Part shown: piece by piece, positions 26,980 through 33,972 of the stretch
Numbering within the stretch: the stretch's first letter is position 1
Layout of the letters: each line of letters begins with the position of its first letter
From: Deltaproteobacteria bacterium
GTDB lineage: Bacteria > Myxococcota_A > Polyangia > Polyangiales > Houyiibacteriaceae
Assembly (NCBI GenBank): GCA_004283055.1
Contig: SHLP01000020.1
Location: forward strand, 1 to 39,087
Direction of reading: 5' to 3'
Length of the DNA: 39,087 nucleotides
Program-made: the position numbers and the translations under genes
The notes under the pieces: model-generated
Seen by the model: only the letters and a program-made list of their open reading frames with translations
What the model was told of the DNA's origin: nothing
Databases searched by the model: none

Positions 26980-26997
26980 GTCGCCTCTCACGGCGAC
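26980..26997. terminator. Candidate bidirectional hairpin
   Basis: GTCGCC (26980-26985) and GGCGAC (26992-26997) form a 6-base GC-rich stem with a 6-base loop, between the ends of the metallophosphoesterase gene and the convergent reductase gene, whose stop lies in the loop. No T-run follows, so a classical Rho-independent terminator is not fully met. Confidence 0.3.
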
Positions 26998-28199
26998 AGC
27001 AGCCCGTGCCAGATCGGAAAGCCGTCTGCTGGCGCGTCGAGGGCGGGCGTTTGCATCGAGCCGATGGGGCAGCTGTGGGCGTTGAGCGTGAGGTTCTCGC
27101 CCAGTAGAGCTCGAACGTCCGAAATGGATGCGGGGTCGGCGCCGACGCACTTCAGGCTCGCACCCATGGGGATCATCGCATCAAAAGCCTCCTCGATCGT
27201 ACGCACGGGCACGACCGTCACGTTTCGATAGCCTGGGCTCCAGCGAATCGATTCCGCGCTGCGAACGGCGATGCCGTAGCTCCTGCCTCGGATGAGCGTT
27301 CCTTCGACCTCGGCGACCCCGCGCCACTGGGCTTGTTCCGCGCCTACCGACGCGGGCAGCGGGCCCCTCGGCAAAGTCCGCTCCATCGGAGCGAGTCCCT
27401 GTTCGGCGAGATGAACGGCGAAGTCCTCCGCCGGTTGCTTGGTGCTCGTCTCGACGAAAACGAGCTGGGGGGAGAGGCATCCGCGTTGGTCGTACGCGCA
27501 GATGTCGAGTGAGAGGCGGGCGATGGTCTCGCCGCGCCGTGCATCTGTGAGCGCGCCGGCGCCGCAGTACGCCACGCTAACTCCGTGCCCGTGAGCGATG
27601 AGCGAGTCCCGGCCGACCCGCGAGGCCATCGCCGCAATCGTTTCGTCGCTGCCGTAGACCGATACGGCCTCAGCGCGCTCGACCAGGGCGGCTTCACAAC
27701 CGACATCGCCTCCACGGAACGTCACCGTGTCCATGGCAGCACCCAAAGTTGGGTTGACTGTCCGAAGCGCGTCTTTTGTCATCGCGGGAAAGGTCAGCTC
27801 CTTCGAAGAAGCTTTGACGAGAACCGGCGCGCCCACGAGCAATGCAACGAATACGCTTCGGACCGATGCGGTGAACACATTGCCCGCGAGCACGAGCGCC
27901 AGCATCGAGATCGGCGCCGACGCGTGCTCGCTTCCGGGACGGGCCCTTGCTGCGAGATCCAGCAGGCCGCTCTCGTCGATCGTGTCGAGCGTGGTTCGGG
28001 CCGCCCAGTCGACCATGGGTACGCTCAAGCCTGTTGCGTCCGACAGCTCTTGGACGGCCTGCCTCGCACTGCGCCTCAGCTCCGCGGCCGCCTCGGCGAG
28101 CCAGGCGGCCCGCTCGGCGGTGCTCGTCTCGCGCAGGGCTCGACCCGCCCCGAGCACCGCGCTAGCGCGCCTCCGAATCACCGCGGGGTCGTCGTTCAA
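26988..28199 (-). CDS. LuxC-like acyl-CoA/acyl-protein reductase
   Basis: The 403-residue product is an aldehyde-dehydrogenase-fold reductase of the LuxC type, which reduces an acyl thioester to an aldehyde with NADPH. Key features: ISMLALVLAGNVFTASVRSV, APVLVKASSKE, the nucleotide-binding-like YGSDETI and the catalytic Cys241 in QRGCLSPQLVFVE, whose CLSPQ context is typical of LuxC. A TTG at 28199 overlaps the TGA of the upstream gene (TTGA) and gives a plausible start; the frame is open to 28322, and a start further in cannot be excluded. It is last in an operon with a class III aminotransferase and a LuxE-like protein. No luxA/luxB is present. Confidence 0.85.
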   Translation of the reverse strand: MNDDPAVIRRRASAVLGAGRALRETSTAERAAWLAEAAAELRRSARQAVQELSDATGLSVPMVDWAARTTLDTIDESGLLDLAARARPGSEHASAPISMLALVLAGNVFTASVRSVFVALLVGAPVLVKASSKELTFPAMTKDALRTVNPTLGAAMDTVTFRGGDVGCEAALVERAEAVSVYGSDETIAAMASRVGRDSLIAHGHGVSVAYCGAGALTDARRGETIARLSLDICAYDQRGCLSPQLVFVETSTKQPAEDFAVHLAEQGLAPMERTLPRGPLPASVGAEQAQWRGVAEVEGTLIRGRSYGIAVRSAESIRWSPGYRNVTVVPVRTIEEAFDAMIPMGASLKCVGADPASISDVRALLGENLTLNAHSCPIGSMQTPALDAPADGFPIWHGLLSP

Positions 28200-29260
28200 C
28201 CTGCCCCCATGGCCTCGTCCGCCGCGAGCGAGCAGCCGCGCGGCGTCGCACCTTGGGCCCGACCGAGCACGACGATTCCCTCCTCGACGCGCTTCGCCAA
28301 ATCCGCGGTTTGAATACAGCACACCGAATCCAAGTTCGCGGTGTCGTCGATCCGTAGGATGCCAACGGTGTCTCCAGCAACCGGCCGAAGAGTATCCGGG
28401 TCGACCGGGGTCGCGCGCACCCAGGGTGGCACCCAGAGCCTTCGGGGCCCCGGCGGTCCATCGACCCCTTCGCGCAGGGTCGTCTCGTAGAACTGGGAGC
28501 TGAGCTCGGTCGCTCCGAACTCGTTGATGATGAAAGGAGCAGGGATGCCGTACCGGTCGCCGATGGCTTCGAGCAGAACCTCGGGATCCACCGCGCGCGA
28601 GCGGCCTTTGTAGCCGCCGGTCTGCATGACCCGGCTCCCGGGAGCGAGCTCGAAGCGCCGCGGCCCAAGACTATCCTCAGCGTGCACGAAGGCAAACGAA
28701 GTGCCGAGCAAGGCGATCGGCGCACCCGAGGACTCTGCGCGGCGCAGCACGTCAGTCAGTCGATCCAGGTCGAGCTGTCCATGGCGCCAGGCCCACGTGC
28801 ACTCGTCACCGAACCATTCCGCGAATCGAGTCAGCATGTATTCGAGAGAGGACTCGGGTGCGTCGTCCTCGTGTGGAGCCAGGATGACGAGGCGGATCTC
28901 GCCGACGTCCGGAAAGAGCATCCGTCGCGCCGCCGCTCGTGCAGCGAGGTCGTACAGGCGCAGGTCGCGATAGGCATGGACGCTTCGTTCCGACGAGGTG
29001 GTGCCCGAGCTCAAGAACACGCGAACGTCCTCCTCGACCGGGTGGGCTGCGATACGCCGAAACCGAAAGACATCGGTCGGAAGCGCGGCCGGCCAGTCGA
29101 TGTCACGCTGCAATCTGCCGTACTCCGGGATGCCACTGGCCTGCCACGTCGCAAGGTCCTCGATCAGCTCGTCACGATGAGCGGGATCGACTTGCTCGCC
29201 TTGGTCGAAGCGTTCGATCATGGCCTCGATTCGGCTCTTCAGCTCGTTCCGGCGGCTCAT
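28196..29260 (-). CDS. LuxE-like acyl-protein synthetase
   Basis: The 354-residue product matches the LuxE family, which activates a fatty acid with ATP and transfers the acyl group from a Cys on itself to the partner reductase LuxC. The adenylation motif is VFLSSGTTSSERSVH (residues 82-95). FGATELSSQFYE is the AMP-binding region seen in LuxE/PaaK-type enzymes. Near the C-terminus is LGRAQGATPRGCSLAADE (Cys343), the position expected of the acyl-accepting cysteine. Its ATG overlaps the aminotransferase stop (ATGA), and its own stop overlaps the start of the reductase. No carrier-protein gene is nearby. The substrate could be a fatty or aromatic acid and is not known. Confidence 0.85.
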   Translation of the reverse strand: MSRRNELKSRIEAMIERFDQGEQVDPAHRDELIEDLATWQASGIPEYGRLQRDIDWPAALPTDVFRFRRIAAHPVEEDVRVFLSSGTTSSERSVHAYRDLRLYDLAARAAARRMLFPDVGEIRLVILAPHEDDAPESSLEYMLTRFAEWFGDECTWAWRHGQLDLDRLTDVLRRAESSGAPIALLGTSFAFVHAEDSLGPRRFELAPGSRVMQTGGYKGRSRAVDPEVLLEAIGDRYGIPAPFIINEFGATELSSQFYETTLREGVDGPPGPRRLWVPPWVRATPVDPDTLRPVAGDTVGILRIDDTANLDSVCCIQTADLAKRVEEGIVVLGRAQGATPRGCSLAADEAMGAG

Positions 29261-30570
29261 CTGTCCCTCAGGACGGCTCGCAGCGATGCGACGAAGCCCT
29301 CGAGCTGTTCGTCGGTCACGATGACCGGCGGGGCGAGCTGAATCACGTCGGCTTCGGCGCCTGCAGGTAGGACGAGGTAGCCGCGTTCGAGAAGCGCCCG
29401 GCTGACCCGCATCGCCTCCAGACCGCCTCGTAGCTGGACCCCAAGCATCATTCCGGCATGACGCACCTCGGTCACGCCGGCGAGCGGCTCGGCGCGCAGC
29501 ATCGCCGCGAAGGTCTTCCCTCGATCGACCGACCGCTGGACGAGCTCGTCGCGTTCGATCAACGCGAGGCTCGCAAGCGCGGCGGCGGAGCCCAGCGGAT
29601 CTCCGAAAAACGTGCCTGTGTGTATCGCCTCGCGGTCAGGGTCACCCCAGGCGCGCATGACGTCTTCTCGCCCGATGCATGCGCTGACGGGCAGTCCACC
29701 GCCGAGGGCCTTGCCAGCGCAGATCAAATCCGGAACGAGGCCTTGGTCGACCGACCGCCACCAGGCGCCGCAGCGACCGACGCCGGTGAAGATTTCATCG
29801 ACGATCAAGAGAGCTCCGTTCTGCTGGCATGCCCGGCCGAGCGCCTCGAGAAAGCCCGGGGGTGGGAACCGAACACCGGAGCGCCCCTGAACCGGCTCGA
29901 CGATGACGGCACCGATGCGGCTCCAGTCTCCCGGCAGCGTTTCGAGTGCCGCTTCGGCACCAAGCTCGGCGCTAGGCCAGGCGGCGAAGTGCACGTCGGG
30001 CTGCAGTTGCGCCATGAACGGCTCTCGAAAGCGCCCGGCAAACCCCGATACTGCCAGCGGAGCGTAGTTGAGCCCGTGATAGCTGCCTTCGAACGCAACT
30101 ACGCCGGTCTTTCCCGTTGCCATCACCGCGGTCTTGAGCGCGGCCGTGACCGCATCGGCGCCGCTCAGCGACAGCATGGCTCGCGCGTGCGGCCATGGCG
30201 CCAGCGCACAGAGCTTCTCGAGCAGCTCGATCTTCACATCGGACGGGTGTAGGTCGCCAAGAGCGTGCAGAAGTCGATCCGCTTGCTGCTTGACGGCTTC
30301 GACGACCTCGGGATGGCGATGCCCGATGAACGCGACCCCGAATCCGGCGGTGAGGTCGACGTATCGATTGCCGTCGGAATCGACCACGTTGCTGCCCTGC
30401 GCTTCAACCCAGACGATCGGATCATGGTTTGCACCTGTGCGCTCCTGGCGTCGTTTTCGCCGGGTCGTGAGCGCAGGGCACTCACTCGCCGCGAGGCGTT
30501 CTACCCACGACCGACCCACGGCCGACGGAATCGGTCGTCGGATGGATGGAAGCGCCTCGCCGAGCTGCAC
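29257..30570 (-). CDS. Class III PLP-dependent aminotransferase
   Basis: The 437-residue product (GTG start at 30570) belongs to aminotransferase class III, the group with GABA, acetylornithine and diamine transaminases. The residues around PLP are GADAVTAALK, EGSYHGLNYAPLAVSG, EPVQGRSGVRFP, VDEIFTGVGRCGAWW with Asp258, and DLICAGKALGGGLPVSA with the Schiff-base Lys287. This class works on terminal amino groups or on aldehydes and ketones, and often makes primary amines from aldehydes. The downstream LuxE- and LuxC-like genes could supply such an aldehyde. The family usually needs an N-terminal segment, which is present here as residues 1-45. Confidence 0.88.
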   Translation of the reverse strand: MQLGEALPSIRRPIPSAVGRSWVERLAASECPALTTRRKRRQERTGANHDPIVWVEAQGSNVVDSDGNRYVDLTAGFGVAFIGHRHPEVVEAVKQQADRLLHALGDLHPSDVKIELLEKLCALAPWPHARAMLSLSGADAVTAALKTAVMATGKTGVVAFEGSYHGLNYAPLAVSGFAGRFREPFMAQLQPDVHFAAWPSAELGAEAALETLPGDWSRIGAVIVEPVQGRSGVRFPPPGFLEALGRACQQNGALLIVDEIFTGVGRCGAWWRSVDQGLVPDLICAGKALGGGLPVSACIGREDVMRAWGDPDREAIHTGTFFGDPLGSAAALASLALIERDELVQRSVDRGKTFAAMLRAEPLAGVTEVRHAGMMLGVQLRGGLEAMRVSRALLERGYLVLPAGAEADVIQLAPPVIVTDEQLEGFVASLRAVLRDR

Positions 30571-30635: not shown

Positions 30636-32090
30636 CTATCGGCCGAAGGGTTTCGGCTTCCACGGATAGAACACGAACCCTCGCTCGCGTGCTTTGCGGA
30701 GCATGTCGTGACCGTCGATCATCAGCACGTCGACTTCCATGTCGTGCTTTCGACTGGTCTCGATGAGCTCCTTGATGATCGCGGTCACGTTGTCCCGATA
30801 GTTGTCGGTGATCCGAAGGCCGATGGCAGGTGTCGGGTCACCGCCTTTTCGGGCGACCTCGCAGTAAGAGGCCCATTCGACCTCGAAATAGCCGCGCAAG
30901 ACACCGGCGACGGCCTTGAGCCAATCCTGGTTCGGCGGGTCCCGAAGCTCCACCAGCTTGATTCCGTCACCGATCGAGGGCGACGGGATGCGTGTGGGAA
31001 TTGCGCTCGGCGGTTTCGCGTCGGGCACCGTGGGCTCCGGCGGTGGTACGGTCGATGCCTTGGCTTTGGGCGTCACCGGTGGTGGGGCGACGGGTTGGAT
31101 CGCCGGTAGTTGCAGTTTGTGCGGCTCCAGTGACGGCAAAGCCTGGGCGGCTGGAGCGGTCGGTGCATCGGAGTTGAGCTTCGGCGCGCTCGAGCTCGAG
31201 GGAGGCTGTAAGTCGGTTTCCTCGGCTTTTTTGGAGTTCACGCCCATCGACGGGGTGATCGGCAGGGATGGCTGTGGGGGCGCCGGAACGACGCTTGCTG
31301 CGCCGTAGGTCCCTTCTTCGCCAAGCTCCGCCGACTCTGCGACGACCTCTTCGATGTTCGCACCGGGCGGCTCGCTCTTGGGCTTGTGCGCTGGTCGTGA
31401 GCTCTTGCGCTGGGTCCTCGGCGCTTCGTCGATCTTGGGTGCCGCTGCGCTTGGCTGAAGCGCGGCCCGCGGCTGGGTGGGTGGCTCGCTGTCGTACGGG
31501 ATCGCGTGTGGCTGCGTGGGCACCTCGCTCAGGCGCTCGATCTTCTCGACCTGGCCGGGCCCCATGCTGTACAGCGTCGAGATCCGTTCGACCGGTGCGG
31601 GAAACGAGCTCTTCGCAGCGGGCTTCGAGGCGTCTTCCGCGCCGGGAGGAGGCGGTGGCCGCGACGTGCGAAACGGACCGGTGCTGTCTAACTCGCGAAG
31701 GATCGACTTCAGCTCATCGCGGCCGTACTCGAGAGAGTGCGCGGTTCCGATGTCGATGACGACGAAGGCATACTCACGCGTCCACGCATGGCGCAGGATG
31801 TCTCCACCGATCGCACGGTGGGTTGCAACCGTTCCGTCTTTCTCGGGCCAGTCGAATTGCTTTGCGGCGCTGTTGAGCTCGGCCTGGGAGCTGAAGACCG
31901 CCAGCGCCTCTTCGCCCTCGCCGTTGATGAGCGTTCGGAACCCCTCGGCCCGCGGCTCCCAGGTCGCCAACCAGACCGGCCGGAGCGACAGTGCTTCGAG
32001 GGCTTCCGCCTTCGGTCCCGGCCCTTTCGCGCCATCGCTCAGCAGGATGCGAAACGCATCGCTACCCCGATCATCTATTGGGCTCACCAT
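30636..32090 (-). CDS. SseB-domain protein with long Pro/Ser-rich linker
   Basis: The 484-residue product (from ATG 32090; the frame is open to 32144) has an N-terminal SseB-type domain (residues 30-130: LRPVWLATWEPRAEGFRTLI, EALAVFSSQAELNSAAKQF, YAFVVIDIGTAHSLEYGRDE) and a C-terminal globular part (about 385-484: DWLKAVAGVLRGYFEVEWAS and LMIDGHDMLRKARERGFVFY) that looks like an SseB C-terminal domain. Between them are about 230 residues rich in Pro, Ser, Ala, Glu, with no predicted fold. SseB proteins have been linked to sulfur-transfer control and to effector-like roles in other bacteria; a function here is open. It is followed by the aminotransferase gene 65 bases downstream. Confidence 0.8.
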   Translation of the reverse strand: MVSPIDDRGSDAFRILLSDGAKGPGPKAEALEALSLRPVWLATWEPRAEGFRTLINGEGEEALAVFSSQAELNSAAKQFDWPEKDGTVATHRAIGGDILRHAWTREYAFVVIDIGTAHSLEYGRDELKSILRELDSTGPFRTSRPPPPPGAEDASKPAAKSSFPAPVERISTLYSMGPGQVEKIERLSEVPTQPHAIPYDSEPPTQPRAALQPSAAAPKIDEAPRTQRKSSRPAHKPKSEPPGANIEEVVAESAELGEEGTYGAASVVPAPPQPSLPITPSMGVNSKKAEETDLQPPSSSSAPKLNSDAPTAPAAQALPSLEPHKLQLPAIQPVAPPPVTPKAKASTVPPPEPTVPDAKPPSAIPTRIPSPSIGDGIKLVELRDPPNQDWLKAVAGVLRGYFEVEWASYCEVARKGGDPTPAIGLRITDNYRDNVTAIIKELIETSRKHDMEVDVLMIDGHDMLRKARERGFVFYPWKPKPFGR

Positions 32091-32158
32091 CCCGGCCACA
32101 CCGTCCGTTTCACATTGTAATCGTGAACGCGGACCGGAACGCAACTTTTCTCAGACCC

Positions 32159-32203: not shown

Positions 32204-32276
32204 GCCCAGATAGCTCAGTTGGTAGAGCAGTGGACTGAAAATCCTCGTGTCCCTGGTTCGATTCCAGGTCTGGGCA
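32204..32276 (+). tRNA. tRNA-Phe (GAA)
   Basis: A full cloverleaf can be drawn by hand: acceptor stem GCCCAGA with TCTGGGC plus discriminator A, D-arm GCTC/GAGC, anticodon loop CTGAAAA with anticodon GAA, variable loop GTGTC and T-arm CCTGG/CCAGG around TTCGATT. The 73-base sequence differs from the E. coli molecule in a few places. The anticodon stem is GTGGA/TCCTC, which leaves a U-U mismatch at positions 28 and 42. CCA is not encoded (ACCT follows). Confidence 0.95.
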
Positions 32277-32277
32277 C

Positions 32278-33972
32278 CTAGGCTGGCCGGCGCCGAAGCC
32301 TCATCAAGAGGACGAATAGCGCCAAGCTGGCCCAGGTTGCCGCGTGCGAACGGGGCGACACCACCCCACATCCACACCCACTCGGTGAGGGCACGGTCGC
32401 GTTGTGCTCCGCGAGGGCCCGCTGAATCGCCTCTGAATTGTCCTGCACCACCGTCCCCGGCCCAGTCGTCGTCAGGGACAAGACGAGCGCATTGGCCGGC
32501 GGCGCATCTTCATCGCCCACCAGGAAAGGCCAGGGGTCGCCGGCATTGAGGCGCACGACACGACCGTCCTCGAGCTCGAAACGAGACGGGGCCTGCCAGC
32601 GGTAGACGCTTCGATGACATTCGATCACCCGACGCGCCGTGTGCAGGTTCGCGAGGTCGGGCAGGTCGGGGTTGAAGTCGAACAAGGGGTCGAGGTCCAT
32701 TTCGGGCGCCGACAAGGTGGTGTAGAAGCGCGTCACATAGGGGCGTGAAAGCAAGAGCTCCTGCGTCGCGATCATCGGCTCCACGACTTCTTCACCGAGG
32801 GCATCCACGAACGCCTGCTTGTCGAGGCCTTCAACGACTGCGGCGCTGCACGAAGGGCATCTCAAAAGCTCATCGACGTCAACGCCGTCCGGAGCAATGC
32901 GATCGATCAGCGCTCGGTAACCGTCCCAGCCCGCGAATCGGATGCTGCTTTCGGAGAGAAGCTCGGATGCAGAGAGAACGTCGACGCTCATCTGGAGCGC
33001 CTCCCAGTCGGCTCTCTCGAAATCGAAGATCAGAAGGTCTTCGTAGTCGGTGCTCGGACCGGCGCGTTCGGAAACGAATCCCTGACCGCCGGCTTCGTTC
33101 GCTGCGGCAATCACGACCTGATTGTAGTTCGCCGCGCCATTGAGCCAGTTGATGAGCGCTTGGTTGAGCTCGAGCGCTTTGTAGTTGACTGGAACGGCTC
33201 GGCTCTCTCCGAGGACCCAGACCATCACGCCCATGTCGTCGTTGGCGGCGACGGCGGTCGGCCGAATCGGGATCATCGGTTGATCGGACTCGTAGGTGAT
33301 CCAAACCGGGCGAATGGTGCCGGTGTCGTTTCCTTTGGTGAGCCGAAACGCGAGGAGGTTCATCGCGTCTTGGAGGTACTCTCCGAGCAGGATCGCGATG
33401 TCATCCGGGTCACCGCCGGGCGGCACCACGTCGTACCCTTCCAGGGTCAGCCATTCGACCGCGGCGTCGCCGATCTTTTCGGAGCTGGCGTCCGGTTGGA
33501 TGACGACGTAGTCGTAGGGACCCACGGTGCCGGACACGAGCACGTTGACCCCGCCGCTGCCACCTGTGCCGCCGGAGCCGCTGTCGTTGAAATTTCCCCC
33601 CGGGGCGCTCGACGCGGAGTCGCCCCGCGTCTGCTTGCACCGGCCTTGGACTTCCGTGGTGAACGTGTATTGGGGGTTGCTCGCCTGCTGCAGCCGAGCG
33701 AACGCTAGATCCGAGGACACCTTCACCTCTGGAATCCCTGGGACGGGAAGCACCCAGGCGAACTCCTCCGACGGGCCTTCGTATTGGATCTGAACGACCG
33801 CGGTCACAGTCTGATCGGCGTTCTTCGAGAAGATGATGCGTTCGGCTGCCTGATTCACCGGCGCAGAGGCGGAGCAAAAAAGCCCTCCACAGGCTCGGGC
33901 ATGCATGGGCTGGGCGATCGCGGCCAGCGCAAAGGCTGAGCCGAATCCAAGGAGAAGGCGGAATCGAGACAT
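32278..33972 (-). CDS. DUF2330 protein with MYXO-CTERM-like sorting tail
   Basis: The 564-residue product has a signal peptide (MSRFRLLLGFGSAFALAAIA, cleavage near HARA) and then the DUF2330 start CGGLFCSASAPVNQAAERII with VQIQYEGPSEEFAWVLPVPG. A Gly/Ser-rich stretch (DSGSGGTGGSGG) interrupts it. At the C-terminus PSPSGCGCGVV, a hydrophobic segment (WASLALFVLLM) and RLRRRPA match the MYXO-CTERM anchor, which in myxobacteria is processed for surface display. ATG 33972 is chosen: AGGA lies eight bases upstream and it starts the signal peptide; the frame runs to 34332. The function is unknown. Its stop is one base past the end of tRNA-Phe. Confidence 0.88.
   Translation of the reverse strand: MSRFRLLLGFGSAFALAAIAQPMHARACGGLFCSASAPVNQAAERIIFSKNADQTVTAVVQIQYEGPSEEFAWVLPVPGIPEVKVSSDLAFARLQQASNPQYTFTTEVQGRCKQTRGDSASSAPGGNFNDSGSGGTGGSGGVNVLVSGTVGPYDYVVIQPDASSEKIGDAAVEWLTLEGYDVVPPGGDPDDIAILLGEYLQDAMNLLAFRLTKGNDTGTIRPVWITYESDQPMIPIRPTAVAANDDMGVMVWVLGESRAVPVNYKALELNQALINWLNGAANYNQVVIAAANEAGGQGFVSERAGPSTDYEDLLIFDFERADWEALQMSVDVLSASELLSESSIRFAGWDGYRALIDRIAPDGVDVDELLRCPSCSAAVVEGLDKQAFVDALGEEVVEPMIATQELLLSRPYVTRFYTTLSAPEMDLDPLFDFNPDLPDLANLHTARRVIECHRSVYRWQAPSRFELEDGRVVRLNAGDPWPFLVGDEDAPPANALVLSLTTTGPGTVVQDNSEAIQRALAEHNATVPSPSGCGCGVVSPRSHAATWASLALFVLLMRLRRRPA

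Follow-up and report, generated by a model that had tools for sequence, protein, structure and literature searches.

A conserved aminotransferase-LuxE-LuxC gene trio of Myxococcota as a putative route from free carboxylic acids to primary amines

The 39,087-nucleotide stretch of contig SHLP01000020.1 analysed here, referred to as the window, belongs to a deltaproteobacterial genome assembly of 4.3 Mb in 293 contigs, close relatives of which are metagenome-assembled genomes (MAGs) of Myxococcales/Polyangiaceae. Its minus strand encodes, in direct succession, a class III pyridoxal phosphate (PLP) aminotransferase (AT), a LuxE-like acyl-protein synthetase and a LuxC-like acyl-thioester reductase. 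We propose, with a probability of roughly 0.6, that the three enzymes would together convert a free carboxylic acid via an aldehyde into a primary amine. The same genes recurred in most families of Myxococcota, where they form a phylum-wide, vertically inherited module, probably with a housekeeping role.

The AT gene (29257-30570, minus strand, 437 aa, GTG start) matched Aminotran_3 (PF00202, 2.8e-88). It is followed on the same strand by the LuxE-like gene (28196-29260, 354 aa, ATG start), coding for an adenylating enzyme of the ANL/PaaK type with the putative acyl-carrying Cys343 in the motif RGCSL, and by the LuxC-like gene (26988-28199, 403 aa, TTG as inferred start), coding for a reductase of the aldehyde dehydrogenase (ALDH) fold with the predicted nucleophile Cys241 in YDQRGCLSP. 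The original prediction for this DNA had described three minus-strand genes with ATGA and TTGA junctions and intact catalytic residues, all of which was confirmed, and had noted that luxA, luxB and luxD are missing. The start/stop overlaps, read from the sequence, lie at 29260-29257 (ATGA, AT/LuxE, pointing to translational coupling) and at 28199-28196 (TTGA, LuxE/LuxC). Lys287 of the AT, SSGTTSS and the RGC Cys343 of LuxE and Cys241 in CLSPQ of LuxC are all present, and none of the three lux genes was found among the window reading frames scanned.

From this set we infer the activities and the direction in which they run (acid, aldehyde, amine), as well as the class of substrate, the amino donor and what is formed, as follows. 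LuxE would activate the acid with ATP, bind it to Cys343 in thioester linkage and transfer it to Cys241 of LuxC, which would reduce the acyl thioester to the aldehyde with NAD(P)H. The PLP enzyme, with its cofactor lysine Lys287, would then aminate the aldehyde, the carboxylate of the amino donor probably being held by a clade-specific Arg230 that replaces the usual Glu-Arg pair. The substrate would most likely be a hydrophobic monocarboxylic acid, by analogy first of all a fatty acid, and the amine formed from it would accordingly have a long chain or be apolar in some other way. Most Myxococcota may use such an amine constitutively, as a component of lipids or of the envelope.

For the first half of this route, the LuxC-like protein matched Pfam LuxC (PF05893) at 1.4e-30 and 107 bits (cut-off 21), and the LuxE-like protein, as a single sequence, gave a marginal match to Pfam LuxE (28.4 bits, cut-off 24.9). 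Neither reached the NCBIfam equivalog cut-offs, with 35.4 of 550 bits for LuxE and 25.2 of 750 bits for LuxC. Family profiles built from alignments of 23 relatives, when searched against PDB sequences, matched only the LuxC-LuxE complex 7xc6 of Photobacterium: the LuxE profile hit 7xc6_E alone (5e-27), with the cysteine of the GCSL motif aligned, and the LuxC profile hit 7xc6_A alone (2e-17), with the reactive cysteine aligned. We consider the assignment firm because of these exclusive matches and the aligned cysteines. The predicted LuxC structure had 7xc6_A as its top fold match, with template modelling (TM) scores of 0.80/0.68, and the LuxE model (predicted local distance difference test score, pLDDT, of 90.6) adopted a PaaK/ANL fold. 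Within the LuxC-LuxE family, the reductase half of the trio stands on a distant branch.

Conservation of the cysteine relay was followed in two alignment sets, one of Polyangiales and one drawn mostly from other families, each including the window sequence. Cys343 of LuxE was invariant in both (76/76 and 54/54), as was Cys241 of LuxC within YDQRGC (60/60 and 44/44). The neighbours of Cys343 in RGCSL were kept too, and LuxE carries the SGT and GG.KG motifs, of which SGT shows a single conservative substitution, in two rows, and is otherwise kept. The corresponding relay of luminous bacteria runs from a C-terminal LuxE cysteine, which is Cys364 in P. phosphoreum, to a cysteine of LuxC, and the transferred acyl group is reduced with NADPH (PMC8301110). 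Moreover, LuxE and LuxC were found as a single uninterrupted reading frame in six genomes from six families. The invariant thioester cysteines, the 7xc6 matches and these natural fusions strongly support a predicted acyl hand-off from LuxE to LuxC.

The AT keeps the catalytic residues of its class but differs from it at three substrate positions. Lys287 was invariant in 73/73 Polyangiales sequences and 50/50 of the second set, as was Asp258. Over both sets (123 rows), the position of Arg180 in ornithine aminotransferase (OAT) and Lys183 in YgjG, which is Leu167 in the window, was Leu in 121 rows and Val and Met once each. The position of OAT Glu235/YgjG Glu243 (window Arg230) was Arg in all 123, and that of OAT Arg413/YgjG Arg426 (window Gln411) was never Arg among the residues counted. 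In OAT these positions provide the arginine for the substrate carboxylate (Arg180) and the Glu-Arg gate (Glu235, Arg413; PMC4244111). The AT thus lacks both the Glu-Arg ion pair and the substrate-carboxylate arginine typical of acetylornithine aminotransferase, OAT and 4-aminobutyrate aminotransferase, while an ArgD-like paralog in the same genome keeps Arg/Glu/Arg. Loss of three carboxylate-binding residues fits an uncharged partner such as an aldehyde, together with a reworked donor site, and a predicted partner without a carboxylate is in this sense supported. The orthologs form one clade apart from all paralogs tested, with support of 100/98.

An alternative would be the reverse order of steps. 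The AT could make an amino acid, or a beta- or omega-amino acid; LuxE and LuxC would then reduce it to an amino aldehyde, or to an amino alcohol if a further enzyme took part. This order would agree with the AT being the first gene of the operon, with the frequent production of amino acids by class III aminotransferases and with a possible role of Arg230 in binding a carboxylate. LuxE homologs of known function, however, use fatty acids, and we regard an AT-first pathway as improbable.

Far from being rarely adjacent in relatives, the three genes stand side by side in most Myxococcota families and co-occur even where they are unlinked. Among loci with sufficient flanking sequence, the order AT-LuxE-LuxC was kept in 46 of 56 from Polyangiales and in 26 of 40 from other Myxococcota. 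Four-base start/stop overlaps recurred at 71 of 95 AT/LuxE and 55 of 88 LuxE/LuxC junctions of relatives (some loci overlap), which is far above chance. Within the class, LuxE was detected in 149 of 290 genomes; it was concentrated in one order, where only nine listed genomes had no match. A profile search of 380 genomes of the phylum, mostly MAGs, returned LuxE in 305, the AT ortholog in 293 (at a threshold of 1e-90, set to keep paralogs out) and LuxC in 295. All three were present in 276 genomes, 71 had none and 33 were partial, with pairwise phi values of 0.88 (LuxE/AT), 0.84 (LuxE/LuxC) and 0.79 (AT/LuxC); kinship among the genomes inflates any p-value derived from these. The lists were merged by hand, with totals matching the tallies, and the handful of divergent matches from the remaining orders of the class was set aside. 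Joint absence spanned whole families, for example f49, where none of twelve genomes of 3.6-11.4 Mb had the trio.

A family that includes closed genomes (f39) was informative in this respect. LuxE lacks an adjacent AT there, but in three closed genomes an ortholog lies 0.6-1.6 Mb away; it scored 478-486 bits, against at most about 270 for paralogs, and fell inside the ortholog clade. Replacement of the AT by a non-homologous gene was considered for this family and rejected: the upstream genes code for a RecF-like protein, a methyltransferase and the beta subunit of DNA polymerase III, with a DNA gyrase C-terminal domain in one of these closed genomes, and the AT itself is found elsewhere. At a single locus of another family (L213, 4553-5752, plus strand), a class I/II aminotransferase occupies the usual place of the AT beside LuxE, and the genome carries a partial AT ortholog on another contig. 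At two loci of another family of the class, a separate and divergent LuxE/LuxC pair has its two genes in the opposite order and no AT.

These distributions bear on the possibility that LuxE and LuxC supply an aldehyde for alcohols or for ether or wax lipids, as cassettes linked to a short-chain dehydrogenase/reductase (SDR) might, and that the AT is carried along in the operon while serving a different purpose. Other phyla indeed have LuxE-LuxC with an SDR and without an AT, and in nine genomes LuxE and LuxC were accompanied by no AT above threshold. On the other hand, the trio co-occurs in closed genomes even when unlinked, whole families lack it jointly, and fragmented MAG assemblies account for many of the partial cases. 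We judge an unconnected AT to be a little less probable still than the AT-first pathway. Class III racemases and aminomutases also do without the usual donor Glu-Arg pair, and they scored in the same range, but an AT acting like glutamate-1-semialdehyde aminomutase on an amino aldehyde made by LuxE and LuxC is very unlikely, since LuxE would then have to accept an amino acid, for which no evidence turned up, and since the best NCBIfam scores of the AT were acetylornithine-transaminase-like, all below their cut-offs.

The genes surrounding the trio differed from family to family. In f4, an operon of rpsM-rpsK-rpsD-rpoA-rplQ lies directly upstream (identities judged by eye from the starts of the sequences, those of rpsM and rpsK by position); elsewhere the flanks held SUF genes or genes for a Mur ligase, a sigma factor or tRNA synthetases. 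Since the flanks vary in this way, the unit comprises just these three genes; it is inherited vertically and probably serves a housekeeping role. A secondary-metabolite cluster was rejected on the grounds of the near-universal, vertical-looking distribution. A role in replacing lipopolysaccharide was rejected as well, because presence of LpxC did not track the trio, genomes with and without LpxC occurring in either state. LpxC is patchy across the phylum; neither the window genome nor several of its relatives gave a match, and lipid A synthesis may be absent from them. In the window, the gene just upstream of the AT (30636-32144, minus strand) encodes a protein with a weak match to the SseB N-terminal domain, conserved upstream in 20 loci, and a tRNA-Phe gene (GAA; 32204-32278, plus strand) lies between it and the gene for a DUF2330/MYXO-CTERM protein. 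An FHA-GGDEF protein of the diguanylate cyclase type is encoded directly upstream of the AT at L068, L094 and 20 other Polyangiales loci, many of them in one family.

Several observations weigh against the proposed acid-to-amine route. The neighbouring genes were tried as clues to the pathway and discarded: they are unrelated housekeeping genes, and with contexts ranging from ribosomal and SUF to Mur and tRNA-synthetase genes, no neighbour indicates one. Neither an AT-LuxE nor an AT-LuxC fusion was found. LuxC was unlinked or without profile match in some families (f4, f9). It is the most divergent member of the trio, and the profile may miss it in some genomes. Several of the partial genomes are fragmented MAGs. 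Finally, TamH of tambjamine biosynthesis aminates fatty aldehydes with L-glutamate, and the AT described here, without the Glu-Arg pair, may not be able to use this donor. The acid-to-amine route put forward in the original prediction is partly supported: adjacency in relatives was confirmed, the hand-off from LuxE to LuxC is strongly favoured, an aldehyde-type partner of the AT is supported, and substrate, direction and product are putative. That the set is a module inherited vertically across the phylum was not part of that prediction. Its claim that no system of exactly this set had been described also stood: no description of an AT-LuxE-LuxC set was found in the literature searched, most subscription journals lying outside that search, but tambjamine biosynthesis achieves the same conversion overall (PMC9594044).

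As a bolder extension, to which we give clearly less than even odds, most Myxococcota might use AT-LuxE-LuxC to turn free acids into a so far undescribed primary amine that serves as a core metabolite or lipid, such as a long-chain amine, free or linked to a head group; the pathway would have been lost only in some families. Nothing on fatty amines was found in the myxobacterial lipid literature searched. Should the route exist, a whole phylum would possess a conserved, probably housekeeping conversion of acids to primary amines that operates without coenzyme A (CoA) or a carrier protein and whose product has so far been overlooked. It would provide a marker compound and a compact new set of biocatalysts, and it makes a clear prediction, namely that lipid and amine profiles differ between families with and without the operon.

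Among described systems, the LuxC-LuxE fatty acid reductase of luminous bacteria (7xc6) is homologous to two of the three enzymes and shares the cysteine relay. The window proteins, however, fall far below the equivalog cut-offs, and in Myxococcota the pair is coupled to an AT and not to a luciferase and is sometimes fused. LuxE/LuxC homologs outside bioluminescence also occur in flagellin glycosylation islands, but these are variable and carry an acyl carrier protein (ACP), a CoA ligase, sugar genes and DegT-type aminotransferases (PMC4875605, PMC7874193). Plasmid LuxE-LuxC pairs of Pantoea, Azospirillum, Priestia and Lactiplantibacillus share about 31-36% identity in LuxE and, where resolved, the same cysteines. 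They differ in that the third enzyme is an SDR, adjacent or a few genes away, often together with an ATP-binding cassette (ABC) transporter; no AT ortholog was found within these loci. Occurrence of LuxE-LuxC with an SDR and without an AT suggests a general acid-to-aldehyde unit, with the partner gene setting the fate of the aldehyde. The plasmid cassettes of Azospirillum and Priestia, composed of LuxE, LuxC, an ABC transporter and a 3-oxoacyl-ACP reductase, suggest transfer of such an acid-reducing unit.

On the side of the aminotransferase, PigE of prodigiosin biosynthesis is likewise a class III AT acting on an aldehyde from thioester reduction, but it is one fused protein, without a LuxE-type partner activating a free acid, and serves a specialised product (PMC8341465). 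A close parallel is TamA/TamH of tambjamine YP1, where a free fatty acid is activated with ATP, passed as a thioester on a carrier, reduced to the aldehyde and converted to a fatty amine by a class III transaminase (PMC9594044). The likeness lies in the acid-aldehyde-amine chemistry predicted here from gene content and residues. TamA combines adenylation and ACP functions in one fused protein, and TamH joins a transaminase to a thioester reductase of the AAR family, both being encoded in a secondary-metabolite cluster; no ACP or AAR domain was found in the three Myxococcota proteins. In the trio, the carrier would be a LuxE cysteine and the reductase a LuxC-type enzyme of the ALDH fold, and the separate AT stands with them in housekeeping contexts in most of the phylum. 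The trio is best described as a putative system that works like TamA/TamH with unrelated parts and is not a member of it.

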